From Ascidia mentula (lineage: Eukaryota; Chordata; Ascidiacea; Phlebobranchia; Ascidiidae), in the NCBI GenBank assembly GCA_947561715.1, contig OX387203.1:7688001-7752000 (forward strand): a stretch of DNA of 64,000 nucleotides, written 5' to 3'. The notes under the pieces were generated by a model. The model was not told where the DNA came from, searched no databases, and worked only from the letters and a program-made list of their open reading frames with translations. This document shows, one piece after another, positions 32,492-64,000 of this stretch (positions are counted from its first letter, which is position 1; every line of letters starts with the position of its first letter). A program made the position numbers and the translations under genes.

Positions 32492-32561
32492 ATGGAGTTA
32501 CGTGGGCTAGCAGCTATTTTGCTTGCTTTGGTTTCTCTACTCGTTGCTGTGGATGGAGCAG
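32492..32561 (+). CDS. Signal-peptide exon of the giant repeat gene
   Basis: ATG at 32492 encodes MELRGLAAILLALVSLLVAV then DGA, a textbook signal peptide with a likely cleavage after VDG or DGA. The exon ends with one base of a Gly or Val codon at a GTTTGT donor (phase 1), the same phase as every downstream exon of the array, so it can join the domain exon at 34583 in frame. An in-frame TAA (32476-32478) lies upstream of the ATG, five codons before it, which supports this start. Assignment to this gene rests on order and phase; no other gene starts in between. Confidence 0.65.
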
Positions 32562-35500: not shown

Positions 35501-38500
35501 TTCCTTTTGCTTGCATCTGTAATGTCAAGGGTTAGCAAATACTATTTTTAAAACTGTGTTTTTGTGGTTGATTGTGGTATATAAATATTTGTCAAAGTGT
35601 TTCTGGTTTAAAAATTTATCGACAAAAACATCCAATAAAGGAGGAATAAGTGGCAATTTGTAAGTTAATAGGTCAAAATTGACCTAATGTGTTTTGTCTG
35701 TTCAATTACATACTTTTCATATTGGATTGTGAATACAAATTTTTATGTAGTGAAGCAATAAGATTGTGATTTAAGAGTTCAAAGAGAAAATTTATTTTAA
35801 ATTTCAGCATCAAGTGGAAAAATTAGTACCAGCCAAGGTAATTTTTATATTTACGCTATCTAGGGTGAATCTATATTTATTCAAAATGTATTACAGGACT
35901 GCAGGAGGGATATGTCAACATACCAAGCAGTTCCACACCCATGGTTACCCTAACATTTCCATTTACTACAACATTAAACACTAGCATCAAGTTATTAGCT
36001 ACAACAATTGGACTACCAGCACATACTTTCAAAATTGGAATTACAAAAGTTTGTGACACAAACTTCACAGTTACTGTACAAAGAACAGATTTGTTGACTG
36101 GTTGGAATCAATCTTTTCCGCTGAGGTTTCAAGTATTTCCAGGTATCTATATTTATAGTTTATCGAGCTCAAACAAAATTTTACAGGCATGCAATCATAT
36201 TTCAGAACCCAAAGCACTTGCAAACAAAACAACTATATCTGGACCAAGTGCAGTAAAGTGTATGGCAGTATTTTGATTTGTTCTCAAATTTGATGTGTTG
36301 TAACATTTATTTTGTTTGCTTCTAGCTTTGCAAACTGGACTGGTTACTGTCCCAACCAGTTCAAAACCAACAATGACATTGACCTTCCCTTTCATACATT
36401 CATTGAATGGTAGTGTAACAGTGCTGGCTACTGCCCTAGGAAAGGCAGGACATAGTTTCAAAGTAGATGTGACAAAAGTATGTGACAGAAATTTTACTGT
36501 AAAAATCCAGCGAACTGATATGTTATCTGGATGGAATTCATCTTTTCCATTGAAGTTTGAAGTAACACCAAGTATGATAATTATCTTAAATAATAATTGA
36601 TAAATAAACAGAAAATAAGTCTATTTAACATTTTGATTAAGGTCCCAACGCACTTGTCAACAAACCGGGTACTGCTGGACCAAGCTCTGCAATACGTAAG
36701 GATTTTTTTATTAGTCATGCCGGGTGTTTACATCTGTTGCAAATTTATTTGTTTTTAGCATTACAAGATGGAATAGTGACAGTTCCAAAAAGTTCTTCCC
36801 CGTCAATCACTTTGACCTTCCCCTTCATACATGCTTTGAATGGCAGTGTTACATTGTCGGCAACTGCACTGGGAATGCCTGGACACAGTTTTCATGTGGT
36901 TGTCACAAAAATATGTGATGGTAATTTTACTGTAAACATTAAAAGAACTGACATGTCTTCCGGATGGAACAGCTCTTTTCCTCTAAAGTTTGAAGTGACA
37001 CCAGGTAGTATTTATGTGCTAAATGCATTGTATGTTTATGGTTAATCATTTGAAATTTGCTTCAGAACTTAAGTCGCTAGCCAACAGCACAGCAGGTTCA
37101 GGAACAAATGCCAAAATTTGTAAGAAAAACTTCTGATAATTTTTCTGTTACTTTTAATATTACTTCTGTATTATGTATTTGATAATTTACATTTCAGCAT
37201 TGCAAAAGGGATGGGTGACAGTTCCTACATCTTCATCTCCATCTGTTTCTTTGACTTTCCCTTTTAATCAAACTTTGAACAGCAGTGTAGAATTACTGCT
37301 ATCAGCAGTGGGACTTCCAAAACACACTTTTGTCCTGGATGTCACTAAGATTTGTAACTCAACTTTTACTGTCACAGTTAAAAGAAGTGATTTTCCATCA
37401 GGCTGGAACAATACATTTCCTTTACAGTATGAAGTGTTTTCCGGTAAATTGGCAAGATGATTTTTGTGCATGTCTAAAAAATAATTTTCTGTTTTTCCAT
37501 TACAGAACCCAAAGCACTTGTTAACAAGCCGACTACATCTGGACCAGTTCCTGTTCAACGTATGTTGTTTTTTGTCTTTCTTTTCCAATCTGTATTTTTT
37601 GAAATATGTTCTGATTTTTATGTGATGTTTTTGTGTCTAGCTTTGCAAACTGGACTGGTTACTGTCCCAACAAGTTCAAAACCAACAATGACTTTGACCT
37701 TCCCATTTACACATTCATTAAATGGCAGTGTAACAGTGCTGGCTACTGCCCTAGGAAAGGCAGGACATAGTTTCAATGTAGATGTGACAAAAGTATGTGA
37801 TGGAAATTTTACTGTAAAAATCCAGCGAACTGATGTGTTATCTGGATGGAATTCATCTTTTCCATTGAAGTTTGAAGTAACACCAAGTATGATAATTATC
37901 TTAAATAATAATTGATAAATAAACAGAAAATAAATATATTTAACATTTTGATTAAGGTCCAAAAGCACTTGTCAACAAACCGGGTACTGCTGGACCAAGC
38001 TCTGCATTACGTAAGGATTTTTTTATTAGTCATGCCGGGTGTTTACATCTGTTGCAAATTTATTTGTTTTTAGCATTACAAGATGGAATAGTGACAGTTC
38101 CAAAAAGTTCTTCCCCGTCAATCACTTTGACCTTCCCCTTCATACATGCTTTGAATGGCAGTGTTACATTGTCGGCAACTGCACTGGGAATGCCTGGACA
38201 CAGTTTTCATGTGGTTGTCACAAAAATATGTGATGGTAATTTTACTGTAAACATTAAAAGAACTGACATGTCTTCCGGATGGAACAGCTCTTTTCCTCTA
38301 AAGTTTGAAGTGACACCAGGTAGTATTTATGTGCTAAATGCATAGTGTGTTGATTATTAATCATTTGAAATTTGCTTTAGAACCTAAGTCGCTAGCCAAC
38401 AGCACAGCAGGTTCAGGAACAAATGCCAAAATTCGTAAGAAAAACTTCTGATAATTTTTCTGTTACTTTTAATATTACTTCTGTATTATGTATTTGATAA

Positions 38501-41500
38501 TTTACATTTCAGCATTGCAAAAGGGATGGGTGACAGTTTCTACATCTTCATCTCCATCTGTTTCTTTGACTTTCCCTTTTAATCAAACTTTGAACAGCAG
38601 TGTAGAATTACTGCTATCAGCAGTTGGACTTCCAAAACACACTTTTGTCCTGGATGTCACTAAGATTTGTAACTCAACTTTTACTGTCACAGTTAAAAGA
38701 AGTGATTTTCCATCAGGCTGGAACAATACATTTCCTTTACAGTATGAAGTGTTTTCCGGTAAATTGGCAAGATAAATTTTGTGCATGTCTAAAAATTAAT
38801 TTTCTGTTTTTCCATTACAGAACCCAAAGCACTTGTAAACAAGCCGACTACATCTGGACCAGTTCCTGTTCAACGTATGTTATTTTTTGTCTTTCTTTTC
38901 CAATCTGTATTTTTTGAAATATGTTCTGATTTTTATGTGATGTTTTTGTGTCTAGCTTTGCAAACTGGACTGGTTACTGTCCCAACAAGTTCAAAACCAA
39001 CAATGACTTTGACCTTCCCATTTACACATTCATTAAATGGCAGTGTAACAGTGCTGGCTACTGCCCTAGGAAAGGCAGGACATAGTTTCAATGTAGATGT
39101 GACAAAAGTATGTGATGGAAATTTTACTGTAAAAATCCAGCGAACTGATGTGTTATCTGGATGGAATTCATCTTTTCCATTGAAGTTTGAAGTAACACCA
39201 AGTATGATAATTATCTTAAATAATAATTGATAAATAAACAGAAAATAAATCTATTTAACATTTTGATTAAGGTCCAAAAGCACTTGTCAACAAACCGGGT
39301 ACTGCTGGACCAAGCTCTGCAATACGTAAGGATTTTTTTATTAGTCATGCCGGGTGTTTACATCTGTTGCAAATTTATTTGTTTTTAGCATTACAAGATG
39401 GAATAGTGACAGTTCCAAAAAGTTCTTCCCCGTCAATCACTTTGACCTTCCCCTTCATACATGCTTTGAATGGCAGTGTTACATTGTCGGCAACTGCACT
39501 GGGAATGCCTGGACACAGTTTTCATGTGGTTGTCACAAAAATATGTGATGGTAATTTTACTGTAAACATTAAAAGAACTGACATGTCTTCCGGATGGAAC
39601 AGCTCTTTTCCTCTAAAGTTTGAAGTGACACCAGGTAGTATTTATGTGCTAAATGCATTGTATGTTTATGGTCAATCATTTGAAATTTGCTTCAGAACCT
39701 AAGTCGCTAGCCAACAGCACAGCAGGTTCAGGAACAAATGCCAAAATTCGTAAGAAAAACTTCTGATAATTTTTCTGTTACTTTTAATATTACTTCTGTA
39801 TTATGTGTTTGATAATTTACATTTCAGCATTGCAAAAGGGATGGGTGACAGTTCCTACATCTTCATCTCCATCTGTTTCTTTGACTTTCCCTTTTAATCA
39901 AACTTTGAACAGCAGTGTAGAATTACTGCTATCAGCAGTGGGACTTCCAAAACACACTTTTGTCCTGGATGTCACTAAGATTTGTAACTCAACTTTTACT
40001 GTCACAGTTAAAAGAAGTGATTTTCCATCAGGCTGGAACAATACATTTCCTTTACATTATGAAGTGTTTTCAGGTAAATTGATAAGATGATTTTTGTGCA
40101 TGTCCAAGAAGCGATTTTCTATTTTGCCATTACAGAACCCAAAGCACTTGTAAACAAGCCGACTACATCTGGACCAGTTCCTGTGCAACGTATGTTATTT
40201 TTTGTTTTTCTTTTCCAATCTGTATTTTTCGAAATATGTTCTGATTTTTATGTGACATTGTTTTGTGTCTAGCTTTGCAAACTGGACTGGTTACTGTCCC
40301 AACAAGTTCAAAACCAACAATGACTTTGACCTTCCCATTTACACATTCATTAAATGGCAGTGTAACAGTGCTGGCTACTGCCCTAGGAAAGGCAGGACAT
40401 AGTTTCAATGTAGATGTGACAAAAGTATGTGATGGAAATTTTACTGTAAAAATCCAGCGAACTGATGTGTTATCTGGATGGAATTCATCTTTTCCATTGA
40501 AGTTTGAAGTAACACCAAGTATGATGATTATCTTAAATAATAATTGATAAATAAACAGAAAATAAATTTATTTAACACTTTGATTAAGGTCCAAAAGCAC
40601 TTGTCAACAAACCGGGTACTGCTGGACCAAGCTCTGCAATACGTAAGGATTTTTTTAATAGTCATGCCGGGTGTTTACATCTGTTGCAAATTTATTTGTT
40701 TTTAGCATTACAAGATGGAATAGTGACAGTTCCAAAAAGTTCTTCCCCGTCAATCACTTTGACCTTCCCCTTCACACATGCTTTGAATGGCAGTGTTACA
40801 TTGTCGGCAACTGCACTGGGAATGCCTGGACACAGTTTTCATGTGGTTGTCACAAAAATATGTGATGGTAATTTTACTGTAAACATTAAAAGAACTGACA
40901 TGTCTTCCGGATGGAACAGCTCTTTTCCTCTAAAGTTTGAAGTGACACCAGGTAGTATTTATGTGCTAAATGCATTGTGTGTTTATTATTAATCATTTGA
41001 AATTTGCTTTAGAACCTAAGTCGCTAGCCAACAGCACAGCAGGTTCAGGAACAAATGTCAAAATTCGTAAGAAAAATTTCTGATAATTTTTCTGTTACTT
41101 TTAATATAACTTCTGTATTATGTATTTGATAATTTACATTTCAGCATTGCAAAAGGGATGGGTGACAGTTCCTACATCTTCATCTCCATCTGTTTCTTTG
41201 ACTTTCCCTTTTAATCAAACTTTGAACAGCAGTGTAGAATTACTGCTATCAGCAGTGGGACTTCCAAAACACACTTTTGTCCTGGATGTCACTAAGATTT
41301 GTAACTCAACTTTTACTGTCACAGTTAAAAGAAGTGATTTTCCATCAGGCTGGAACAATACATTTCCTTTACAGTATGAAGTGTTTTCCGGTAAATTGGC
41401 AAGATGATTTTTGTGCATGTCTAAAAATTAATTTTCTGTTTTTCCATTACAGAACCCAAAGCACTTGTAAACAAGCCGACTACATCTGGACCAGTTCCTG

Positions 41501-44500
41501 TTCAACGTATGTTGTTTTTTGTTTTTCTTTTCCAATCTGTATTTTTTGAAATATGTTCTGATTTTTATGTGATGTTTTTGTGTCTAGCTTTGCAAACTGG
41601 ACTGGTTACTGTCCCAACAAGTTCAAAACCAACAATGACTTTGACCTTCCCATTTACACATTCATTAAATGGCAGTGTAACAGTGCTGGCTACTGCCCTA
41701 GGAAAGGCAGGACATAGTTTCAATGTAGATGTGACAAAAGTATGTGATGGAAATTTTACTGTAAAAATCCAGCGAACTGATGTGTTATCTGGATGGAATT
41801 CATCTTTTCCATTGAAGTTTGAAGTAACACCAAGTATGATGATTATCTTAAATAATAATTGATAAATAAACAGAAAATAAATTTATTTAACATTTTGATT
41901 AAGGTCCAAAAGCACTTGTCAACAAACCGGGTACTGCTGGACCAAGCTCTGCAATACGTAAGGATTTTTTTATTAGTCATGCCGGGTGTTTACATCTGTT
42001 GCAAATTTATTTGTTTTTAGCATTACAAGATGGAATAGTGACAGTTCCAAAAAGTTCTTCCCCGTCAATCACTTTGACCTTCCCCTTCACACATGCTTTG
42101 AATGGCAGTGTTACATTGTCGGCAACTGCACTGGGAATGCCTGGACACAGTTTTCATGTGGTTGTCACAAAAATATGTGATGGTAATTTTACTGTAAACA
42201 TTAAAAGAACTGACATGTCTTCCGGATGGAACAGCTCTTTTCCTCTAAAGTTTGAAGTGACACCAGGTAGTATTTATGTGCTAAATGCATTGTGTGTTTA
42301 TTATTAATCATTTGAAATTTGCTTTAGAACCTAAGTCGCTAGCCAACAGCACAGCAGGTTCAGGAACAAATGTCAAAATTCGTAAGAAAAACTTCTGATA
42401 ATTTTTCTGTTACTTTTAATATAACTTCTGTATTATGTATTTGATAATTTACATTTCAGCATTGCAAAAGGGATGGGTGACAGTTCCTACATCTTCATCT
42501 CCATCTGTTTCTTTGACTTTCCCTTTTAATCAAACTTTGAACAGCAGTGTAGAATTACTGCTATCAGCAGTGGGACTTCCAAAACACACTTTTGTCCTGG
42601 ATGTCACTAAGATTTGTAACTCAACTTTTACTGTCACAGTTAAAAGAAGTGATTTTCCATCAGGCTGGAACAATACATTTCCTTTACAGTATGAAGTGTT
42701 TTCCGGTAAATTGGCAAGATGATTTTTGTGCATGTCTAAAAATTAATTTTCTGTTTTTCCATTACAGAACCCAAAGCACTTGTAAACAAGCCGACTACAT
42801 CTGGACCAGTTCCTGTTCAACGTATGTTGTTTTTTGTCTTTCTTTTCCAATCTGTATTTTTTGAAATATGTTCTGATTTTTATGTGATGTTTTTGTGTCT
42901 AGCTTTGCAAACTGGACTGGTTACTGTCCCAACAAGTTCAAAACCAACAATGACTTTGACCTTCCCATTTACACATTCATTAATTGGCAGTGTAACAGTG
43001 CTGGCTACTGCCCTAGGAAAGGCAGGACATAGTTTCAATGTAGATGTGACAAAAGTATGTGATGGAAATTTTACTGTAAAAATCCAGCGAACTGATGTGT
43101 TATCTGGATGGAATTCATCTTTTCCATTGAAGTTTGAAGTAACACCAAGTATGATGATTATCTTAAATAATAATTGATAAATAAACAGAAAATAAATTTA
43201 TTTAACATTTTGATTAAGGTCCAAAAGCACTTGTCAACAAACCGGGTACTGCTGGACCAAGCTCTGCAATACGTAAGGATTTTTTTATTAGTCATGCCGG
43301 GTGTTTACATCTGTTGCAAATTTATTTGTTTTTAGCATTACAAGATGGAATAGTGACAGTTCCAAAAAGTTCTTCCCCGTCAATCACTTTGACCTTCCCC
43401 TTCACACATGCTTTGAATGGCAGTGTTACATTGTCGGCAACTGCACTGGGAATGCCTGGACACAGTTTTCATGTGGTTGTCACAAAAATATGTGATGGTA
43501 ATTTTACTGTAAACATTAAAAGAACTGACATGTCTTCCGGATGGAACAGCTCTTTTCCTCTAAAGTTTGAAGTGACACCAGGTAGTATTTATGTGCTAAA
43601 TGCATTGTGTGTTTATTATTAATCATTTGAAATTTGCTTTAGAACCTAAGTCGCTAGCCAACAGCACAGCAGGTTCAGGAACAAATGCCAAAATTCGTAA
43701 GAAAAACTTCTGATAATTTTTCTGTTACTTTTAATATAACTTCTGTATTATGTATTTGATAATTTACATTTCAGCATTGCAAAAGGGATGGGTGACAGTT
43801 CCTACATCTTCATCTCCATCTGTTTCTTTGACTTTCCCTTTTAATCAAACTTTGAACAGCAGTGTAGAATTACTGCTATCAGCAGTGGGACTTCCAAAAC
43901 ACACTTTTGTCCTGGATGTCACTAAGATTTGTAACTCAACTTTTACTGTCACAGTTAAAAGAAGTGATTTTCCATCAGGCTGGAACAATACATTTCCTTT
44001 ACAGTATGAAGTGTTTTCCGGTAAATTGGCAAGATGATTTTTGTGCATGTCTAAAAATTAATTTTCTGTTTTTCCATTACAGAACCCAAAGCACTTGTTA
44101 ACAAGCCGACTACATCTGGACCAGTTCCTGTTCAACGTATGTTGTTTTTTGTCTTTCTTTTCCAATCTGTATTTTTTGAAATATGTTCTGATTTTTATGT
44201 GATGTTTTTGTGTCTAGCTTTGCAAACTGGACTGGTTACTGTCCCAACAAGTTCAAAACCAACAATGACTTTGACCTTCCCATTTACACATTCATTAAAT
44301 GGCAGTGTAACAGTGCTGGCTACTGCCCTAGGAAAGGCAGGACATAGTTTCAATGTAGATGTGACAAAAGTATGTGATGGAAATTTTACTGTAAAAATCC
44401 AGCGAACTGATGTGTTATCTGGATGGAATTCATCTTTTCCATTGAAGTTTGAAGTAACACCAAGTATGATGATTATCTTAAATAATAATTGATAAATAAA

Positions 44501-47500
44501 CAGAAAATAAATTTATTTAACATTTTGATTAAGGTCCAAAAGCACTTGTCAACAAACCGGGTACTGCTGGACCAAGCTCTGCAATACGTAAGGATTTTTT
44601 TATTAGTCATGCCGGGTGTTTACATCTGTTGCAAATTTATTTGTTTTTAGCATTACAAGATGGAATAGTGACAGTTCCAAAAAGTTCTTCCCCGTCAATC
44701 ACTTTGACCTTCCCCTTCACACATGCTTTGAATGGCAGTGTTACATTGTCGGCAACTGCACTGGGAATGCCTGGACACAGTTTTCATGTGGTTGTCACAA
44801 AAATATGTGATGGTAATTTTACTGTAAACATTAAAAGAACTGACATGTCTTCCGGATGGAACAGCTCTTTTCCTCTAAAGTTTGAAGTGACACCAGGTAG
44901 TATTTATGTGCTAAATGCATTGTGTGTTTATTATTAATCATTTGAAATTTGTTTTAGAACCTAAGTCGCTAGCCAACAGCACAGCAGGTTCAGGAACAAA
45001 TGCCAAAATTCGTAAGAAAAACTTCTGATAATTTTTCTGTTACTTTTAATATAACTTCTGTATTATGTATTTGATAATTTACATTTCAGCATTGCAAAAG
45101 GGATGGGTGACAGTTCCTACATCTTCATCTCCATCTGTTTCTTTGACTTTCCCTTTTAATCAAACTTTGAACAGCAGTGTAGAATTACTGCTATCAGCAG
45201 TGGGACTTCCAAAACACACTTTTGTCCTGGATGTCACTAAGATTTGTAACTCAACTTTTACTGTCACAGTTAAAAGAAGTGATTTTCCATCAGGCTGGAA
45301 CAATACATTTCCTTTACAGTATGAAGTGTTTTCCGGTAAATTGGCAAGATGATTTTTGTGCATGTCTAAAAATTAATTTTCTGTTTTTCCATTACAGAAC
45401 CCAAAGCACTTGTTAACAAGCCGACTACATCTGGACCAGTTCCTGTTCAACGTATGTTGTTTTTTGTCTTTCTTTTCCAATCTGTATTTTTTGAAATATG
45501 TTCTGATTTTTATGTGATGTTTTTGTGTCTAGCTTTGCAAACTGGACTGGTTACTGTCCCAACAAGTTCAAAACCAACAATGACTTTGACCTTCCCATTT
45601 ACACATTCATTAAATGGCAGTGTAACAGTGCTGGCTACTGCCCTAGGAAAGGCAGGACATAGTTTCAATGTAGATGTGACAAAAGTATGTGATGGAAATT
45701 TTACTGTAAAAATCCAGCGAACTGATGTGTTATCTGGATGGAATTCATCTTTTCCATTGAAGTTTGAAGTAACACCAAGTATGATGATTATCTTAAATAA
45801 TAATTGATAAATAAACAGAAAATAAATTTATTTAACATTTTGATTAAGGTCCAAAAGCACTTGTCAACAAACCGGGTACTGCTGGACCAAGCTCTGCAAT
45901 ACGTAAGGATTTTTTTATTAGTCATGCCGGGTGTTTACATCTGTTGCAAATTTATTTGTTTTTAGCATTACAAGATGGAATAGTGACAGTTCCAAAAAGT
46001 TCTTCCCCGTCAATCACTTTGACCTTCCCCTTCACACATGCTTTGAATGACAGTGTTACATTGTCGGCAACTGCACTGGGAATGCCTGGACACAGTTTTC
46101 ATGTGGTTGTCACAAAAATATGTGATGGTAATTTTACTGTAAACATTAAAAGAACTGACATGTCTTCCGGATGGAACAGCTCTTTTCCTCTAAAGTTTGA
46201 AGTGACACCAGGTAGTATTTATGTGCTAAATGCATTGTGTGGTTATTATTAATCATTTGAAATTTGTTTTAGAACCTAAGTCGCTAGCCAACAGCACAGC
46301 AGGTTCAGGAACAAATCCCAAAATTCGTAAGAAAAACTTCTGATAATTTTTCTGTTACTTTTAATATAACTTCTGTATTATGTATTTGATAATTTACATT
46401 TCAGCATTGCAAAAGGGATGGGTGACAGTTCCTACATCTTCATCTCCATCTGTTTCTTTGACTTTCCCTTTTAATCAAACTTTGAACAGCAGTGTAGAAT
46501 TACTGCTATCAGCAGTGGGACTTCCAAAACACACTTTTGTCCTGGATGTCACTAAGATTTGTAACTCAACTTTTACTGTCACAGTTAAAAGAAGTGATTT
46601 TCCATCAGGCTGGAACAATACATTTCCTTTACAGTATGAAGTGTTTTCCGGTAAATTGGCAAGATGATTTTTGTGCATGTCTAAAAATTAATTTTCTGTT
46701 TTTCCATTACAGAACCCAAAGCACTTGTAAACAAGCCGACTACATCTGGACCAGTTCCTGTTCAACGTATGTTGTTTTTTGTCTTTCTTTTCCAATCTGT
46801 ATTTTTTGAAATATGTTCTGATTTTTATGTGATGTTTTTGTGTCTAGCTTTGCAAACTGGACTGGTTACTGTCCCAACAAGTTCAAAACCAACAATGACT
46901 TTGACCTTCCCATTTACACATTCATTAAATGGCAGTGTAACAGTGCTGGCTACTGCCCTAGGAAAGGCAGGACATAGTTTCAATGTAGATGTGACAAAAG
47001 TATGTGATGGAAATTTTACTGTAAAAATCCAGCGAACTGATGTGTTATCTGGATGGAATTCATCTTTTCCATTGAAGTTTGAAGTAACACCAAGTATGAT
47101 GATTATCTTAAATAATAATTGATAAATAAACAGAAAATAAATTTATTTAACATTTTGATTAAGGTCCAAAAGCACTTGTCAACAAACCGGGTACTGCTGG
47201 ACCAAGCTCTGCAATACGTAAGGATTTTTTTATTAGTCATGCCGGGTGTTTACATCTGTTGCAAATTTATTTGTTTTTAGCATTACAAGATGGAATAGTG
47301 ACAGTTCCAAAAAGTTCTTCCCCGTCAATCACTTTGACCTTCCCCTTCACACATGCTTTGAATGGCAGTGTTACATTGTCGGCAACTGCACTGGGAATGC
47401 CTGGACACAGTTTTCATGTGGTTGTCACAAAAATATGTGATGGTAATTTTACTGTAAACATTAAAAGAACTGACATGTCTTCCGGATGGAACAGCTCTTT

Positions 47501-53500: not shown

Positions 53501-56500
53501 TAAATGGCAGTGTAACAGTGCTGGCTACTGCCCTAGGAAAGGCAGGACATAGTTTCAATGTAGATGTGACAAAAGTATGTGATGGAAATTTTACTGTAAA
53601 AATCCAGCGAACTGATGTGTTATCTGGATGGAATTCATCTTTTCCATTGAAGTTTGAAGTAACACCAAGTATGATGATTATCTTAAATAATAATTGATAA
53701 ATAAACAGAAAATAAATTTATTTAACATTTTGATTAAGGTCCAAAAGCACTTGTCAACAAACCGGGTACTGCTGGACCAAGCTCTGCAATACGTAAGGAT
53801 TTTTTTATTAGTCATGCCGGGTGTTTACATCTGTTGCAAATTTATTTGTTTTTAGCATTACAAGATGGAATAGTGACAGTTCCAAAAAGTTCTTCCCCGT
53901 CAATCACTTTGACCTTCCCCTTCACACATGCTTTGAATGGCAGTGTTACATTGTCGGCAACTGCACTGGGAATGCCTGGACACAGTTTTCATGTGGTTGT
54001 CACAAAATTATGTGATGGTAATTTTACTGTAAACATTAAAAGAACTGACATGTCTTCCGGATGGAACAGCTCTTTTCCTCTAAAGTTTGAAGTGACACCA
54101 GGTAGTATTTATGTGCTAAATGCATTGTGTGTTTATTATTAATCATTTGAAATTTGTTTTAGAACCTAAGTCGCTAGCCAACAGCACAGCAGGTTCAGGA
54201 ACAAATGCCAAAATTCGTAAGAAAAACTTCTGATAATTTTTCTGTTACTTTTAATATAACTTCTGTATTATGTATTTGATAATTTACATTTCAGCATTGC
54301 AAAAGGGATGGGTGACAGTTCCTACATCTTCATTTCCATCTGTTTCTTTGACTTTCCCTTTTAATCAAACTTTGAACAGCAGTGTAGAATTACTGCTATC
54401 AGCAGTGGGACTTCCAAAACACACTTTTGTCCTGGATGTCACTAAGATTTGTAACTCAACTTTTACTGTCACAGTTAAAAGAAGTGATTTTCCATCAGGC
54501 TGGAACAATACATTTCCTTTACAGTATGAAGTGTTTTCCGGTAAATTGGCAAGATGATTTTTGTGCATGTCTAAAAATTAATTTTCTGTTTTTCCATTAC
54601 AGAACCCAAAGCACTTGTTAACAAGCCGACTACATCTGGACCAGTTCCTGTTCAACGTATGTTGTTTTTTGTCTTTCTTTTCCAATCTGTATTTTTTGAA
54701 ATATGTTCTGATTTTTATGTGATGTTTTTGTGTCTAGCTTTGCAAACTGGACTGGTTACTGTCCCAACAAGTTCAAAACCAACAATGACTTTGACCTTCC
54801 CATTTACACATTCATTAAATGGCAGTGTAACAGTGCTGGCTACTGCCCTAGGAAAGGCAGGACATAGTTTCAATGTAGATGTGACAAAAGTATGTGATGG
54901 AAATTTTACTGTAAAAATCCAGCGAACTGATGTGTTATCTGGATGGAATTCATCTTTTCCATTGAAGTTTGAAGTAACACCAAGTATGATGATTATCTTA
55001 AATAATAATTGATAAATAAACAGAAAATAAATTTATTTAACATTTTGATTAAGGTCCAAAAGCACTTGTCAACAAACCGGGTACTGCTGGACCAAGCTCT
55101 GCAATACGTAAGGATTTTTTTATTAGTCATGCCGGGTGTTTACATCTGTTGCAAATTTATTTGTTTTTAGCATTACAAGATGGAATAGTGACAGTTCCAA
55201 AAAGTTCTTCCCCGTCAATCACTTTGACCTTCCCCTTCACACATGCTTTGAATGACAGTGTTACATTGTCGGCAACTGCACTGGGAATGCCTGGACACAG
55301 TTTTCATGTGGTTGTCACAAAAATATGTGATGGTAATTTTACTGTAAACATTAAAAGAACTGACATGTCTTCCGGATGGAACAGCTCTTTTCCTCTAAAG
55401 TTTGAAGTGACACCAGGTAGTATTTATGTGCTAAATGCATTGTGTGTTTATTATTAATCATTTGAAATTTGTTTTAGAACCTAAGTCGCTAGCCAACAGC
55501 ACAGCAGGTTCAGGAACAAATGCCAAAATTCGTAAGAAAAACTTCTGATAATTTTTCTGTTACTTTTAATATAACTTCTGTATTATGTATTTGATAATTT
55601 ACATTTCAGCATTGCAAAAGGGATGGGTGACAGTTCCTACATCTTCATCTCCATCTGTTTCTTTGACTTTCCCTTTTAATCAAACTTTGAACAGCAGTGT
55701 AGAATTACTGCTATCAGCAGTGGGACTTCCAAAACACACTTTTGTCCTGGATGTCACTAAGATTTGTAACTCAACTTTTACTGTCACAGTTAAAAGAAGT
55801 GATTTTCCATCAGGCTGGAACAATACATTTCCTTTACAGTATGAAGTGTTTTCCGGTAAATTGGCAAGATGATTTTTGTGCATGTCTAAAAATTAATTTT
55901 CTGTTTTTCCATTACAGAACCCAAAGCACTTGTAAACAAGCCGACTACATCTGGACCAGTTCCTGTTCAACGTATGTTGTTTTTTGTCTTTCTTTTCCAA
56001 TCTGTATTTTTTGAAATATGTTCTGATTTTTATGTGATGTTTTTGTGTCTAGCTTTGCAAACTGGACTGGTTACTGTCCCAACAAGTTCAAAACCAACAA
56101 TGACTTTGACCTTCCCATTTACACATTCATTAAATGGCAGTGTAACAGTGCTGGCTACTGCCCTAGGAAAGGCAGGACATAGTTTCAATGTAGATGTGAC
56201 AAAAGTATGTGATGGAAATTTTACTGTAAAAATCCAGCGAACTGATGTGTTATCTGGATGGAATTCATCTTTTCCATTGAAGTTTGAAGTAACACCAAGT
56301 ATGATGATTATCTTAAATAATAATTGATAAATAAACAGAAAATAAATTTATTTAACATTTTGATTAAGGTCCAAAAGCACTTGTCAACAAACCGGGTACT
56401 GCTGGACCAAGCTCTGCAATACGTAAGGATTTTTTTATTAGTCATGCCGGGTGTTTACATCTGTTGCAAATTTATTTGTTTTTAGCATTACAAGATGGAA

Positions 56501-59500
56501 TAGTGACAGTTCCAAAAAGTTCTTCCCCGTCAATCACTTTGACCTTTCCCTTCACACATGCTTTGAATGGCAGTGTTACATTGTCGGCAACTGCACTGGG
56601 AATGCCTGGACACAGTTTTCATGTGGTTGTCACAAAAATATGTGATGGTAATTTTACTGTAAACATTAAAAGAACTGACATGTCTTCCGGATGGAACAGC
56701 TCTTTTCCTCTAAAGTTTGAAGTGACACCAGGTAGTATTTATGTGCTAAATGCATTGTGTGTTTATTATTAATCATTTGAAATTTGCTTTAGAACCTAAG
56801 TCGCTAGCCAACAGCACAGCAGGTTCAGGAACAAATGTCAAAATTCGTAAGAAAAACTTCTGATAATTTTTCTGTTACTTTTAATATAACTTCTGTATTA
56901 TGTATTTGATAATTTACATTTCAGCATTGCAAAAGGGATGGGTGACAGTTCCTACATCTTCATCTCCATCTGTTTCTTTGACTTTCCCTTTTAATCAAAC
57001 TTTGAACAGCAGTGTAGAATTACTGCTATCAGCAGTGGGACTTCCAAAACACACTTTTGTCCTGGATGTCACTAAGATTTGTAACTCAACTTTTACTGTC
57101 ACAGTTAAAAGAAGTGATTTTCCATCAGGCTGGAACAATACATTTCCTTTACAGTATGAAGTGTTTTCCGGTAAATTGGCAAGATGATTTTTGTGCATGT
57201 CTAAAAATTAATTTTCTGTTTTTCCATTACAGAACCCAAAGCACTTGTAAACAAGCCGACTACATCTGGACCAGTTCCTGTTCAACGTATGTTGTTTTTT
57301 GTCTTTCTTTTCCAATCTGTATTTTTTGAAATATGTTCTGATTTTTATGTGATGTTTTTGTGTCTAGCTTTGCAAACTGGACTGGTTACTGTCCCAACAA
57401 GTTCAAAACCAACAATGACTTTGACCTTCCCATTTACACATTCATTAAATGGCAGTGTAACAGTGCTGGCTACTGCCCTAGGAAAGGCAGGACATAGTTT
57501 CAATGTAGATGTGACAAAAGTATGTGATGGAAATTTTACTGTAAAAATCCAGCGAACTGATGTGTTATCTGGATGGAATTCATCTTTTCCATTGAAGTTT
57601 GAAGTAACACCAAGTATGATGATTATCTTAAATAATAATTGATAAATAAACAGAAAATAAATTTATTTAACATTTTGATTAAGGTCCAAAAGCACTTGTC
57701 AACAAACCGGGTACTGCTGGACCAAGCTCTGCAATACGTAAGGATTTTTTTATTAGTCATGCCGGGTGTTTACATCTGTTGCAAATTTATTTGTTTTTAG
57801 CATTACAAGATGGAATAGTGACAGTTCCAAAAAGTTCTTCCCCGTCAATCACTTTGACCTTCCCCTTCACACATGCTTTGAATGGCAGTGTTACATTGTC
57901 GGCAACTGCACTGGGAATGCCTGGACACAGTTTTCATGTGGTTGTCACAAAAATATGTGATGGTAATTTTACTGTAAACATTAAAAGAACTGACATGTCT
58001 TCCGGATGGAACAGCTCTTTTCCTCTAAAGTTTGAAGTGACACCAGGTAGTATTTATGTGCTAAATGCATTGTGTGTTTATTATTAATCATTTGAAATTT
58101 GTTTTAGAACCTAAGTCGCTAGCCAACAGCACAGCAGGTTCAGGAACAAATGCCAAAATTCGTAAGAAAAACTTCTGATAATTTTTCTGTTACTTTTAAT
58201 ATAACTTCTGTATTATGTATTTGATAATTTACATTTCAGCATTGCAAAAGGGATGGGTGACAGTTCCTACATCTTCATCTCCATCTGTTTCTTTGACTTT
58301 CCCTTTTAATCAAACTTTGAACAGCAGTGTAGAATTACTGCTATCAGCAGTGGGACTTCCAAAACACACTTTTGTCCTGGATGTCACTAAGATTTGTAAC
58401 TCAACTTTTACTGTCACAGTTAAAAGAAGTGATTTTCCATCAGGCTGGAACAATACATTTCCTTTACAGTATGAAGTGTTTTCCGGTAAATTGGCAAGAT
58501 GATTTTTGTGCATGTCTAAAAATTAATTTTCTGTTTTTCCATTACAGAACCCAAAGCACTTGTAAACAAGCCGACTACATCTGGACCAGTTCCTGTTCAA
58601 CGTATGTTGTTTTTTGTCTTTCTTTTCCAATCTGTATTTTTTGAAATATGTTCTGATTTTTATGTGATGTTTTTGTGTCTAGCTTTGCAAACTGGACTGG
58701 TTACTGTCCCAACAAGTTCAAAACCAACAATGACTTTGACCTTCCCATTTACACATTCATTAAATGGCAGTGTAACAGTGCTGGCTACTGCCCTAGGAAA
58801 GGCAGGACATAGTTTCAATGTAGATGTGACAAAAGTATGTGATGGAAATTTTACTGTAAAAATCCAGCGAACTGATGTGTTATCTGGATGGAATTCATCT
58901 TTTCCATTGAAGTTTGAAGTAACACCAAGTATGATGATTATCTTAAATAATAATTGATAAATAAACAGAAAATAAATTTATTTAACATTTTGATTAAGGT
59001 CCAAAAGCACTTGTCAACAAACCGGGTACTGCTGGACCAAGCTCTGCAATACGTAAGGATTTTTTTATTAGTCATGCCGGGTGTTTACATCTGTTGCAAA
59101 TTTATTTGTTTTTAGCATTACAAGATGGAATAGTGACAGTTCCAAAAAGTTCTTCCCCGTCAATCACTTTGACCTTCCCCTTCACACATGCTTTGAATGG
59201 CAGTGTTACATTGTCGGCAACTGCACTGGGAATGCCTGGACACAGTTTTCATGTGGTTGTCACAAATATATGTGATGGTAATTTTACTGTAAACATTAAA
59301 AGAACTGACATGTTTTCCGGATGGAACAGCTCTTTTCCTCTAAAGTTTGAAGTGACACCAGGTAGTATTTATGTGCTAAATGCATTGTGTGTTTATTATT
59401 AATCATTTGAAATTTGCTTTAGAACCTAAGTCGCTAGCCAACAGCACAGCAGGTTCAGGAACAAATGTCAAAATTCGTAAGAAAAACTTCTGATAATTTT

Positions 59501-62500
59501 TCTGTTACTTTTAATATAACTTCTGTATTATGTATTTGATAATTTACATTTCAGCATTGCAAAAGGGATGGGTGACAGTTCCTACATCTTCATCTCCATC
59601 TGTTTCTTTGACTTTCCCTTTTAATCAAACTTTGAACAGCAGTGTAGAATTACTGCTATCAGCAGTGGGACTTCCAAAACACACTTTTGTCCTGGATGTC
59701 ACTAAGATTTGTAACTCAACTTTTACTGTCACAGTTAAAAGAAGTGATTTTCCATCAGGCTGGAACAATACATTTCCTTTACAGTATGAAGTGTTTTCCG
59801 GTAAATTGGCAAGATGATTTTTGTGCATGTCTAAAAATTAATTTTCTGTTTTTCCATTACAGAACCCAAAGCACTTGTTAACAAGCCGACTACATCTGGA
59901 CCAGTTCCTGTTCAACGTATGTTGTTTTTTGTCTTTCTTTTCCAATCTGTATTTTTTGAAATATGTTCTGATTTTTATGTGATGTTTTTGTGTCTAGCTT
60001 TGCAAACTGGACTGGTTACTGTCCCAACAAGTTCAAAACCAACAATGACTTTGACCTTCCCATTTACACATTCATTAAATGGCAGTGTAACAGTGCTGGC
60101 TACTGCCCTAGGAAAGGCAGGACATAGTTTCAATGTAGATGTGACAAAAGTATGTGATGGAAATTTTACTGTAAAAATCCAGCGAACTGATGTGTTATCT
60201 GGATGGAATTCATCTTTTCCATTGAAGTTTGAAGTAACACCAAGTATGATGATTATCTTAAATAATAATTGATAAATAAACAGAAAATAAATTTATTTAA
60301 CATTTTGATTAAGGTCCAAAAGCACTTGTCAACAAACCGGGTACTGCTGGACCAAGCTCTGCAATACGTAAGGATTTTTTTATTAGTCATGCCGGGTGTT
60401 TACATCTGTTGCAAATTTATTTGTTTTTAGCATTACAAGATGGAATAGTGACAGTTCCAAAAAGTTCTTCCCCGTCAATCACTTTGACCTTCCCCTTCAC
60501 ACATGCTTTGAATGGCAGTGTTACATTGTCGGCAACTGCACTGGGAATGCCTGGACACAGTTTTCATGTGGTTGTCACAAAAATATGTGATGGTAATTTT
60601 ACTGTAAACATTAAAAGAACTGACATGTCTTCCGGATGGAACAGCTCTTTTCCTCTAAAGTTTGAAGTGACACCAGGTAGTATTTATGTGCTAAATGCAT
60701 TGTGTGTTTATTATTAATCATTTGAAATTTGTTTTAGAACCTAAGTCGCTAGCCAACAGCACAGCAGGTTCAGGAACAAATGCCAAAATTCGTAAGAAAA
60801 ACTTCTGATAATTTTTCTGTTACTTTTAATATAACTTCTGTATTATGTATTTGATAATTTACATTTCAGCATTGCAAAAGGGATGGGTGACAGTTCCTAC
60901 ATCTTCATCTCCATCTGTTTCTTTGACTTTCCCTTTTAATCAAACTTTGAACAGCAGTGTAGAATTACTGCTATCAGCAGTGGGACTTCCAAAACACACT
61001 TTTGTCCTGGATGTCACTAAGATTTGTAACTCAACTTTTACTGTCACAGTTAAAAGAAGTGATTTTCCATCAGGCTGGAACAATACATTTCCTTTACAGT
61101 ATGAAGTGTTTTCCGGTAAATTGGCAAGATGATTTTTGTGCATGTCTAAAAATTAATTTTCTGTTTTTCCATTACAGAACCCAAAGCACTTGTTAACAAG
61201 CCGACTACATCTGGACCAGTTCCTGTTCAACGTATGTTGTTTTTTGTCTTTCTTTTCCAATCTGTATTTTTTGAAATATGTTCTGATTTTTATGTGATGT
61301 TTTTGTGTCTAGCTTTGCAAACTGGACTGGTTACTGTCCCAACAAGTTCAAAACCAACAATGACTTTGACCTTCCCATTTACACATTCATTAAATGGCAG
61401 TGTAACAGTGCTGGCTACTGCCCTAGGAAAGGCAGGACATAGTTTCAATGTAGATGTGACAAAAGTATGTGATGGAAATTTTACTGTAAAAATCCAGCGA
61501 ACTGATGTGTTATCTGGATGGAATTCATCTTTTCCATTGAAGTTTGAAGTAACACCAAGTATGATGATTATCTTAAATAATAATTGATAAATAAACAGAA
61601 AATAAATTTATTTAACATTTTGATTAAGGTCCAAAAGCACTTGTCAACAAACCGGGTACTGCTGGACCAAGCTCTGCAATACGTAAGGATTTTTTTATTA
61701 GTCATGCCGGGTGTTTACATCTGTTGCAAATTTATTTGTTTTTAGCATTACAAGATGGAATAGTGACAGTTCCAAAAAGTTCTTCCCCGTCAATCACTTT
61801 GACCTTCCCCTTCACACATGCTTTGAATGGCAGTGTTACATTGTCGGCAACTGCACTGGGAATGCCTGGACACAGTTTTCATGTGGTTGTCACAAAAATA
61901 TGTGATGGTAATTTTACTGTAAACATTAAAAGAACTGACATGTCTTCCGGATGGAACAGCTCTTTTCCTCTAAAGTTTGAAGTGACACCAGGTAGTATTT
62001 ATGTGCTAAATGCATTGTGTGTTTATTATTAATCATTTGAAATTTGTTTTAGAACCTAAGTCGCTAGCCAACAGCACAGCAGGTTCAGGAACAAATGCCA
62101 AAATTCGTAAGAAAAACTTCTGATAATTTTTCTGTTACTTTTAATATAACTTCTGTATTATGTATTTGATAATTTACATTTCAGCATTGCAAAAGGGATG
62201 GGTGACAGTTCCTACATCTTCATCTCCATCTGTTTCTTTGACTTTCCCTTTTAATCAAACTTTGAACAGCAGTGTAGAATTACTGCTATCAGCAGTGGGA
62301 CTTCCAAAACACACTTTTGTCCTGGATGTCACTAAGATTTGTAACTCAACTTTTACTGTCACAGTTAAAAGAAGTGATTTTCCATCAGGCTGGAACAATA
62401 CATTTCCTTTACAGTATGAAGTGTTTTCCGGTAAATTGGCAAGATGATTTTTGTGCATGTCTAAAAATTAATTTTCTGTTTTTCCATTACAGAACCCAAA

Positions 62501-64000
62501 GCACTTGTTAACAAGCCGACTACATCGGGACCAGTTCCTGTTCAACGTATGTTGTTTTTTGTCTTTCTTTTCCAATCTGTATTTTTTGAAATATGTTCTG
62601 ATTTTTATGTGATGTTTTTGTGTCTAGCTTTGCAAACTGGACTGGTTACTGTCCCAACAAGTTCAAAACCAACAATGACTTTGACCTTCCCATTTACACA
62701 TTCATTAAATGGCAGTGTAACAGTGCTGGCTACTGCCCTAGGAAAGGCAGGACATAGTTTCAATGTAGATGTGACAAAAGTATGTGATGGAAATTTTACT
62801 GTAAAAATCCAGCGAACTGATGTGTTATCTGGATGGAATTCATCTTTTCCATTGAAGTTTGAAGTAACACCAAGTATGATGATTATCTTAAATAATAATT
62901 GATAAATAAACAGAAAATAAATTTATTTAACATTTTGATTAAGGTCCAAAAGCACTTGTCAACAAACCGGGTACTGCTGGACCAAGCTCTGCAATACGTA
63001 AGGATTTTTTTATTAGTCATGCCGGGTGTTTACATTTGTTGCAAATTTATTTGTTTTTAGCATTACAAGATGGAATAGTGACAGTTCCAAAAAGTTCTTC
63101 CCCGTCAATCACTTTGACCTTCCCCTTCACACATGCTTTGAATGGCAGTGTTACATTGTCGGCAACTGCACTGGGAATGCCTGGACACAGTTTTCATGTG
63201 GTTGTCACAAAAATATGTGATGGTAATTTTACTGTAAACATTAAAAGAACTGACATGTCTTCCGGATGGAACAGCTCTTTTCCTCTAAAGTTTGAAGTGA
63301 CACCAGGTAGTATTTATGTGCTAAATGCATTGTGTGTTTATTATTAATCATTTGAAATTTGCTTTAGAACCTAAGTCGCTAGCCAACAGCACAGCAGGTT
63401 CAGGAACAAATGCCAAAATTCGTAAGAAAAACTTCTGATAATTTTTCTGTTACTTTTAATATAACTTCTGTATTATGTATTTGATAATTTACATTTCAGC
63501 ATTGCAAAAGGGATGGGTGACAGTTCCTACATCTTCATCTCCATCTGTTTCTTTGACTTTCCCTTTTAATCAAACTTTGAACAGCAGTGTAGAATTACTG
63601 CTATCAGCAGTGGGACTTCCAAAACACACTTTTGTCCTGGATGTCACTAAGATTTGTAACTCAACTTTTACTGTCACAGTTAAAAGAAGTGATTTTCCAT
63701 CAGGCTGGAACAATACATTTCCTTTACAGTATGAAGTGTTTTCCGGTAAATTGGCAAGATGATTTTTGTGCATGTCTAAAAATTAATTTTCTGTTTTTCC
63801 ATTACAGAACCCAAAGCACTTGTAAACAAGCCGACTACATCTGGACCAGTTCCTGTTCAACGTATGTTGTTTTTTGTCTTTCTTTTCCAATCTGTATTTT
63901 TTGAAATATGTTCTGATTTTTATGTGATGTTTTTGTGTCTAGCTTTGCAAACTGGACTGGTTACTGTCCCAACAAGTTCAAAACCAACAATGACTTTGAC
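32492..64000 (+). CDS. Giant secreted repeat protein with H-type-lectin-like domains, 3'-partial
   Basis: The gene opens with a signal-peptide exon at 32492-32561, followed by exons 34583-34831, 35220-35246, 35808-35837, 35897-36142 and 36206-36259, then 21 complete six-exon units (36326-63942) and the first 58 bases of another. All introns seen are phase 1, so the reading frame is open throughout: about 225 residues before the array plus 6,300 in it, continuing past the window. Domains are about 82 residues with the order G.VTVP, TLTFPF, SV.VLATALG, F.V.VTK.C, NFTV.I.RTD, SGWN.SFPL.FEV. This strand order, QxG start and gFxVxxxT core resemble H-type lectins (discoidin/Helix agglutinin C-terminal fold), although the last-strand Trp is replaced by Phe/Tyr. 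Secretion and heavy N-glycosylation are inferred; a structural, adhesive or mucin-like coat role is speculation. Confidence 0.8.
32562..34582 (+). other. First intron of the giant repeat gene, about 2 kb
   Basis: AT-rich DNA without a recognisable exon. It holds an exact 21-bp tandem duplication at 34163-34204. The open frame at 33768-34046 has no splice context or motif and is not called. The intron is far longer than the 61-81 nt introns inside the array. Confidence 0.5.
34163..34204. repeat. 21-bp exact tandem duplication
   Basis: CAATTCACTGCGGTTTAAGTT occupies 34163-34183 and is repeated immediately at 34184-34204. No third copy. It lies in the first intron, about 380 bases before the first domain exon. 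Confidence 0.9.
34583..34831 (+). CDS. First, diverged domain exon of the giant repeat gene
   Basis: The 249-nt exon has phase 1 on both sides and encodes 83 residues. GWSVIPASTLSS and KTITVQLSQPLNSL align with GLVTVPTSS and TLTFPF..SLNGS of the array, and FTKVCDSNFTIVIKRTD and SGWNQSINL match almost residue for residue. It is the most diverged domain and the only one with 83 rather than 82 residues, so it is probably the oldest edge of the cluster. Two sequons (NFT, NQS). Confidence 0.75.
35220..35246 (+). CDS. Linker micro-exon (27 nt)
   Basis: Between TCATGCAG and GTGAG; encodes GLNITANTT with two sequons in nine residues. Phase 1 at both ends, so it can be included or skipped without altering the frame. 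It takes the position of the 54-nt linker exons of the array. Confidence 0.5.
35670..35685. promoter_or_regulatory. Inverted AGGTCA half-sites spaced by 4 bp
   Basis: AGGTCA-AAAT-TGACCT is a perfect inverted pair of nuclear-receptor half-sites inside an intron of the giant repeat gene; the palindrome extends by T/A on both sides. Binding is unproven, and such a palindrome may be chance. Confidence 0.25.
35808..35837 (+). CDS. Linker micro-exon (30 nt)
   Basis: Between ATTTCAG and GTAATT; encodes ASSGKISTSQ. Phase 1 at both ends. With the preceding 27-nt exon it makes a 19-residue linker, close to the 18-residue linkers of the array, as though one ancestral linker had been split. Confidence 0.5.
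35897..36142 (+). CDS. Second diverged domain exon of the giant repeat gene
   Basis: 246 nt, phase 1/1, 82 residues: GLQEGYVNIPSSS, MVTLTFPFTTTLNTS, KLLATTIGLPAHTF, ITKVCDTNFTVTVQRTD, TGWNQSFPLRF. It is intermediate between the first exon and the array domains, sharing GLP.HTF with type C and KVC with type A. Three sequons (NTS, NFT, NQS). The product strand is followed by a standard 54-nt linker exon at 36206-36259 (EPKALANKTTISGPSAVK). Confidence 0.8.
36206..36259 (+). CDS. Linker exon preceding the tandem array
   Basis: 54 nt, phase 1/1, encoding EPKALANKTTISGPSAVK. It is homologous to the linkers of the array (EPKALVNKPTTSGPVPVQ) but has its own sequon NKT. It joins the first type A domain at 36326. 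Confidence 0.75.
36326..37640 (+). CDS. Array unit 1 (domains A, B, C and three linkers)
   Basis: Exons 36326-36571 (A), 36642-36695 (linker), 36759-37004 (B), 37066-37119 (linker), 37198-37443 (C), 37506-37559 (linker). A begins LQTGLVTVPTSSKPTMTLTF, B LQDGIVTVPKSSSPSITLTF, C LQKGWVTVPTSSSPSVSLTF. Linkers are GPNALVNKPGTAGPSSAI-, ELKSLANSTAGSGTNAKI- and EPKALVNKPTTSGPVPVQ-like. Compared with the later consensus, unit 1 differs in domain A (FIHSLNG, FKVDV, CDRNFT, RTDML) and in both of the first two linkers, so it is the least homogenised unit. Confidence 0.9.
37641..38955 (+). CDS. Array unit 2 (reference exon layout)
   Basis: Exons 37641-37886 (A), 37957-38010 (linker), 38074-38319 (B), 38381-38434 (linker), 38513-38758 (C), 38821-38874 (linker). 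Adding multiples of 1315 gives the exons of units 3 to 21 (plus 2 from the fourth unit on). Domain B keeps FIHALNG, as in units 1 and 3, whereas units 4-21 have FTHALN. Domain C has VSTSS in place of VPTSS. Confidence 0.9.
63943..64000 (+). CDS. Start of array unit 22, cut by the window end
   Basis: 58 bases of another type A exon identical to the consensus up to PTMTL. The array therefore extends beyond the window and its true copy number cannot be given. Confidence 0.9.

Follow-up and report, generated by a model that had tools for sequence, protein, structure and literature searches.

A probable giant adhesion GPCR of the ascidian Ascidia mentula with an ectodomain built from a near-identical exon cassette array

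What kind of gene carries more than twenty almost identical copies of a multi-exon unit, and what would its product do? The question is raised by the window analyzed here, a stretch of 64,000 nucleotides of Ascidia mentula DNA (positions 7688001-7752000 of contig C71), which the initial annotation had read as one giant gene of 21 complete 1315-bp units, each encoding 300 residues in three related beta domains plus linkers, in an array running off the window. For the analysis, 20 kb upstream and 100 kb downstream were added to give 184 kb, free of N bases, with coordinates continued from those of the window; genome searches covered 195,842,439 bases in 79 contigs. The best explanation as a whole, which we hold to be probable, is one gene for a giant adhesion GPCR whose cassette-array ectodomain acts as a multivalent tether.

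BLASTN with one unit against the 184 kb revealed an unbroken array of end-to-end copies at 36641-69453, all on the plus strand, with 24 full-length copies (22 of 1315 bp and two of 1317 bp) plus a 25th, intact up to the end of its last exon. The array does run off the window, as had been proposed, and ends at about 69453, 5.4 kb further on, with 25 units in total rather than 21. The original count holds for the window: 21 units fit before 63943 in the register that begins at 36326, one of them being 1317 bp long rather than 1315; in the register starting at 36641, 20 units are complete inside the window. The single orientation and the 300 residues per unit were borne out. Six exons of 54, 246, 54, 246, 54 and 246 nt, that is 900 coding bases, are present in 25 of 25 units, in the order linker, domain A, linker, domain B, linker, domain C. 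The features of the array, with unit 8 as an example, are as follows.

36641..64000 in the window, on to about 69453, + strand: cassette array A-B-C, 25 units (BLASTN; 150 exons)
45849..45902, + strand: linker exon L1, unit 8
45966..46211, + strand: domain exon A, unit 8 (AlphaFold2 mean pLDDT 92.3, six strands)
46273-46326, + strand: linker exon L2, unit 8
46405..46650, + strand: domain exon B, unit 8
46713-46766, + strand: linker exon L3, unit 8
46848..47093, + strand: domain exon C, unit 8
63943..64000, + strand: 22nd C-type exon, start only, at the window end

Every copy is in frame, as the initial annotation had stated: the 150 array exons contain no stop codon. In 2000 dinucleotide shuffles of one unit, not one kept all three domain exons open. 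All 150 exons are 54 or 246 nt long and start in phase 1; the border patterns required GT and AG, so these borders were chosen and are not an independent test.

Identity to the reference unit is 99.4-100% for inner units and 96.3-98.8% for edge units. The 20 core units have a mean pairwise difference of only 0.25%, introns included (exons 0.24%, introns 0.29%), 7 of the 190 core pairs are identical, and units 7-8 equal units 9-10 exactly. Such uniformity over about 33 kb speaks for a reading in which the array is real but its unit number depends on the assembly, the true number being much smaller or larger and differing between haplotypes. Yet the published assembly was built from 74-fold HiFi reads with a QV of 64.9, according to the excerpt of its description (PMC11109543), and the locus is without N. 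Moreover, the 22 units of 1315 bp hold 39 variable sites, many of them private to one unit, that serve as anchors, and at either edge the array passes gradually into diverged domains. We consider an assembly-dependent unit number unlikely.

The phase of the exons invites another reading, in which the cassettes serve alternative splicing and one gene yields receptors of many lengths. All domain and linker exons 5' of the mucin-like exon described below start in phase 1, and any subset could therefore be skipped without loss of frame. Against this, near-identical cassettes would provide length and hardly any sequence diversity, with only 12 distinct unit proteins among 25. The exon arrays of Dscam are diverged, unlike the cassettes found here. 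Mutually exclusive splicing of the cassettes was set aside given the near-identity of the units, and we judge splicing into many lengths to be very unlikely as the reason for the array.

That the locus is a single gene with a product of at least 6,500 residues, as had been suggested, agrees with a spliced model built by hand: 187 exons from 32492 to 83074 on the plus strand with 29,868 coding bases, encoding 9,955 residues in an open frame with the sole stop at the end. The A-B-C domains and linkers emerge from this model as exon cassettes. Its first version missed four of the 150 array exons and contained three stops; for the final version, less strict patterns were used and one acceptor was shifted by 5 bases to hold the frame. 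The introns comprise 185 of the GT-AG type and one GC-AG, with a median of 70 nt and 2,021 nt for the one after the first coding exon. The predicted product has a mass of about 1,037 kDa and 307 N-glycosylation sequons in residues 24-9640, and its order is signal peptide, N1-N3, 25 cassettes, D-J, mucin-like stretch, x1-x8, GPS-like motif and 7TM domain. Outside the array the model consists of these features.

32492..32561, + strand: first coding exon, putative signal peptide MELRGLAAILLALVSLLVAVDGA, ends in phase 1 (by eye; hydropathy peak at residues 8-26)
34583..34831, + strand: domain exon N1, diverged (profile match 2.4e-22; 38% identical to domain A; six strands modeled)
35220..35246, + strand: small linker exon, 27 nt (picked by eye to hold the frame)
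35808..35837, + strand: small linker exon, 30 nt (picked by eye to hold the frame)
35897..36142, + strand: domain exon N2, diverged (profile match 4.4e-36)
36206..36259, + strand: linker exon (gene model)
36326..36571, + strand: domain exon N3, C-like, where the register of the initial annotation begins (NG86 against C: dS 0.128, dN 0.022)
69740-73491, beyond the window, + strand: seven diverged domains D-J (profile search, gene model)
73692-75959, beyond the window, + strand: mucin-like exon (gene model)
76153-79286, beyond the window, + strand: exons x1-x8 (gene model)
79519-79653, beyond the window, + strand: GPS-like exon (gene model; 17.8 bits against a cut-off of 22.5)
80106-83074, beyond the window, + strand: 7TM exons including the stop codon (Pfam 7tm_2, E 2.6e-13)

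The mucin-like exon encodes 756 residues (39.6% Gly, 22.4% Thr, 7.9% Ser) and is made of a 42-bp repeat. Since the gene continues into this exon, the GPS-like exon and a 7TM domain, its product is very probably a giant adhesion GPCR of A. mentula. The C-terminal part matches Pfam 7tm_2 with 50.2 bits (cut-off 20.6). Of the nine PDB sequences that it matches at an E-value of 1 or lower, eight belong to adhesion GPCRs, with ADGRG2 as the best (E 1.5e-7) and E1, G6, G4 and D1 among them; the ninth is unrelated (E 0.066). A Kyte-Doolittle scan gave seven separate segments at residues 9642-9906 (eight windows, two of them overlapping); outside this region it picked up the signal peptide as well as a soluble segment at 7957, a false positive. 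The ectodomain is a long run of adhesive modules behind the signal peptide, the latter judged by hydropathy only.

The GPS-like motif scores below the Pfam cut-off (E 0.0049 on a 44-residue piece) and was not reported in pieces of 291 and 701 residues (Pfam scans, E up to 0.1); a GAIN family gave no Pfam match at E up to 0.1. In an alignment made by eye, K-A-T (CKCVKATDYS) stands at the place where adhesion GPCRs have HL*T/S, and self-cleavage is therefore unlikely. The excerpt of PMC8878244 gives HL*T/S as the autoproteolysis site of adhesion GPCRs, a site not common to all members, and states that uncleaved members can work via a tethered agonist. Because uncleaved members are known, K-A-T at this site does not exclude membership.

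The weakness of the GPS and GAIN calls also bears on whether the locus may comprise at least two genes, the array encoding a secreted, giant, lectin-like protein and a separate adhesion GPCR following it; the joining of the array to the mucin-like and 7TM exons is a prediction of the gene model. However, none of the 187 exons interrupts the frame before the single terminal stop, domains D-J run into the mucin-like exon with no intervening signal peptide in the hydropathy scan, and the same order, reduced in scale, seems to recur in neighboring genes. A division into separate genes is in our estimation highly improbable.

These neighbors lie downstream as tandem receptors, with TM and GPS pieces at 95341-97128, 139772-141538, 149325-151125 and 159923-161735. 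The gene at 84.5-97 kb has an exon that resembles a signal peptide by eye, a weak domain match at 86021 (E 0.0024), a 69-bp Ser/Thr-rich repeat and a 7tm_2 piece; a second domain in this gene, similar by eye only, found no support (profile E 12, no Pfam match). In the gene at 136.7-141.6 kb, a domain match (E 0.00088) is accompanied by a Thr/Pro-rich stretch, a GPS above the cut-off (29.7 bits) and two 7tm_2 pieces. Pfam scans of six neighbor pieces found 7tm_2 in three, GPS in one and neither in two, and no Pfam family matched the two candidate domains of the neighboring genes. Since these shorter neighbors seem to follow the same plan, the giant gene appears to be an extreme case within a local family of receptors with few domains. 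At least 153 7tm_2 matches were counted in the genome (150 of 454 candidates scored), a number that mixes secretin-type with adhesion receptors and includes several exons per gene; the giant gene is not among the matches listed.

Clusters of secretin-type 7TM exons were seen at 7.20-7.88 Mb of C71, 15.1-15.6 Mb of C69, 3.84-3.95 Mb of C73 and 0.4-1.8 Mb of C2; they resemble adhesion GPCR genes expanded in tandem, with weak lectin-like domain relatives interspersed in some of them. Among the matches listed, a second large tandem array at about 99400-131000 is apparently a satellite, with units of about 1.5-1.8 kb and nested subrepeats of about 150 bp; weak GPS-TM matches every 1.8 kb downstream (E 2-5), initially candidates for receptor exons, proved to be satellite. 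A long inverted repeat at about 86600-88000, recognized by eye, is perhaps part of a mobile element. Within the window, 27629-28252 (+ strand) contains part of a gene for an MGAT4-type N-acetylglucosaminyltransferase (Pfam MGAT4_cons, E 1.5e-16), and 8424-13595 (+ strand) holds three long open frames of 492, 570 and 546 residues with no Pfam match at E up to 0.1. Mitochondrial COX1 (contig C79) is open under the ascidian code, with AGA/AGG at glycine positions of the mammalian chain in 13 of 16 cases and at serine positions in 0 of 16.

The beta domain of about 82 residues occurs 85 times in the model: three upstream or C-like copies, 75 in the cassettes and seven downstream. A profile search of six-frame translations found the diverged domains at 34585 and 35899, the C-like one at 36326 and the seven at 69739 to 73487. 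When the genome was searched with domain G, 85 of the 86 matches fell in the giant gene, the exception lying at C71:7863600; with domain H, weaker relatives appeared on C69, on C73 and elsewhere on C71, the best one outside the giant gene at E 5.6e-6. Weak domain-like matches 8,566 bases apart at C73:2715560-2870215 (several at 2824533-2850231) suggest another tandem gene array there. F44, R62, D64 and G68 are invariant in 13 aligned domains, and S11 and W69 are present in at least 90%.

No Pfam family passes its cut-off for this domain. At E up to 1, H_lectin (PF09458) matches one of the 13 domains, domain H, as its top hit (E about 0.042), and its best score is 14.4 bits against a cut-off of 24; the unrelated Y_Y_Y family does slightly better (two of 13, best E 0.016). 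A genome-wide search with PF09458 gave no match, and control genomes were equally silent. PDB sequence searches with the beta domain found no lectin; antibody chains at the top of the PDB profile list (E 0.076 and above) were taken as chance. AlphaFold2, applied to seven window sequences with N1 as a second test, predicted six strands each for domain A and N1 (mean pLDDT 92.3 and 87.7). With both models, Foldseek placed pyocin and phage fiber or tailspike domains, SLL-2 and Helix agglutinins first in the PDB, with probabilities near 1 and a best E-value of 0.0085, none being at or below 0.001; for SLL-2 and 2ccv the probability is 0.98-1.00 but E is 0.045-0.14. Among the top 50 viral models, two are named H-type lectin. 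In view of the weak Pfam and Foldseek E-values, the modeled fold is called H-type-lectin-like and not H-type lectin.

How did the array arise? The protein, to judge from substitution rates, is constrained between the older cassette members: dS is 1.02 and dN 0.15 for A against C, and dS 1.09 and dN 0.33 for A against B (nine pairs were computed, four of them with saturated dS). Inside the array (25 units) no selection on the protein is visible, with 12 synonymous and 23 non-synonymous changes against 667:2033 possible (p 0.24). The 39 variable sites comprise 19 at 900 exon positions and 20 at 415 intron positions (Fisher p 0.013, largely from edge units). Since core units differ so little on average, the array is recent or homogenized, and from constraint between A, B and C together with uniformity within the array, the cassette is best read as an old constrained protein unit that has been recently amplified or homogenized. 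A satellite-like expansion inside a gene no longer expressed, in keeping with the undetectable selection among units and with the large satellite 16 kb downstream of the receptor gene, is scarcely credible given 150 array exons free of stop or frameshift despite all the variable sites, the lower density of these sites in exons than in introns, a difference that comes largely from the edge units, and the intact 7TM domain.

The giant adhesion GPCR with its amplified cassettes could thus be pictured as follows. Unequal crossing over or gene conversion may have expanded the array and maintained its uniformity; with all exons symmetric (phase 1 to 1), neither process can disrupt the frame. The ectodomain would be a long tether for a repetitive ligand; glycans appear the likeliest ligand because the fold is lectin-like and ascidian surfaces are rich in glycans. 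With 85 domains at about 3.5-4 nm plus linkers and mucin, we estimate that it would reach several hundred nanometers. Such a tether could engage a polymeric ligand at many of its sites and transmit tension to the 7TM domain, and ligand binding or pull might be relayed to the tethered agonist beside the GPS, without autoproteolysis. For the role as a multivalent tether we see an even chance; glycan binding by the predicted lectin-like domains is a more tentative proposal, possible and somewhat doubtful. Most likely the receptor is very long, multivalent, probably uncleaved and responsive to ligand or tension, a function that we infer.

A bolder proposal would make this the largest GPCR described so far. 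Its ectodomain, about 1 MDa without counting sugars, would have its length set by unequal crossing over and so differ from one individual to the next, and the lectin-like rope would attach to O-glycans on the mucin-like stretches of like receptors displayed by opposing cells. The result would be a chordate recognition receptor, polymorphic in length and binding to itself, with concerted evolution like that of abalone VERL; the proposal is decidedly unlikely in our view. The near-identical cassettes nevertheless offer a clean natural experiment: receptor length may vary between individuals in steps of 300 residues with all else unchanged, so that the effect of tether length on adhesion GPCR signaling becomes testable. 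Symmetric exons also offer a route by which a receptor can grow by recombination with its frame kept.

As the initial annotation had held, no described protein with this A-B-C cassette architecture was found among the matches listed in literature searches outside subscription journals, nor was a paper that combines an H-type lectin with an adhesion GPCR; the excerpt of PMC12716839 makes no mention of a lectin. In Ciona, 30 adhesion GPCRs are described in the excerpt of PMC2396169, 24 of them unclassified, with simple N-termini that carry only a GPS domain in 21 of 30. The unclassified ones are like the giant gene in being specific to the tunicate lineage, without vertebrate orthologues; a lectin-like array, as present here, is not mentioned in that excerpt (PMC2396169).

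The H-type lectins (Helix agglutinins, SLL-2, discoidin I) and the domains of R-pyocin and phage fibers appear in Foldseek to resemble the modeled domain in its predicted six-stranded beta sandwich of about 80-100 residues, with TM-scores by query of 0.56-0.68 for SLL-2 and 0.57-0.60 for 2ccv. They are small soluble or fiber proteins, unlike a receptor, and the domain sequence found here lies under the H_lectin cut-off. For the evolution of the array, abalone VERL is the closer parallel: the excerpt of PMC2704960 describes inner repeats (3-22) homogenized by concerted evolution and two diverged first repeats, and here likewise the edges are diverged and the inside is uniform. The length of the VERL array differs between individuals (PMC2704960, excerpt). 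VERL is an extracellular recognition protein of the egg coat with repeats of 153 residues (453 bp), in that excerpt neither a receptor nor built of an intron-spanning cassette (PMC2704960).

Among receptors, ADGRV1 (VLGR1) is called the largest adhesion GPCR in the excerpts of PMC13197933 and PMC9146371. The giant gene is like it in that its product would be an adhesion GPCR combining a very large, repetitive ectodomain with a terminal 7TM domain, and differs from it in its predicted length of 9,955 residues and in its domain; for Calx-beta, the beta domains gave no Pfam match at E up to 1. ADGRV1 reportedly has about 6,300 residues and some 35 Calx-beta repeats, which are not near-identical. 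If transcribed as modeled, the A. mentula receptor would extend the known repertoire of adhesion GPCR ectodomains by a lectin-like module and would exceed ADGRV1, at the length reported for the latter, by more than half, so that it is a candidate, by predicted length, for the largest receptor in its class.
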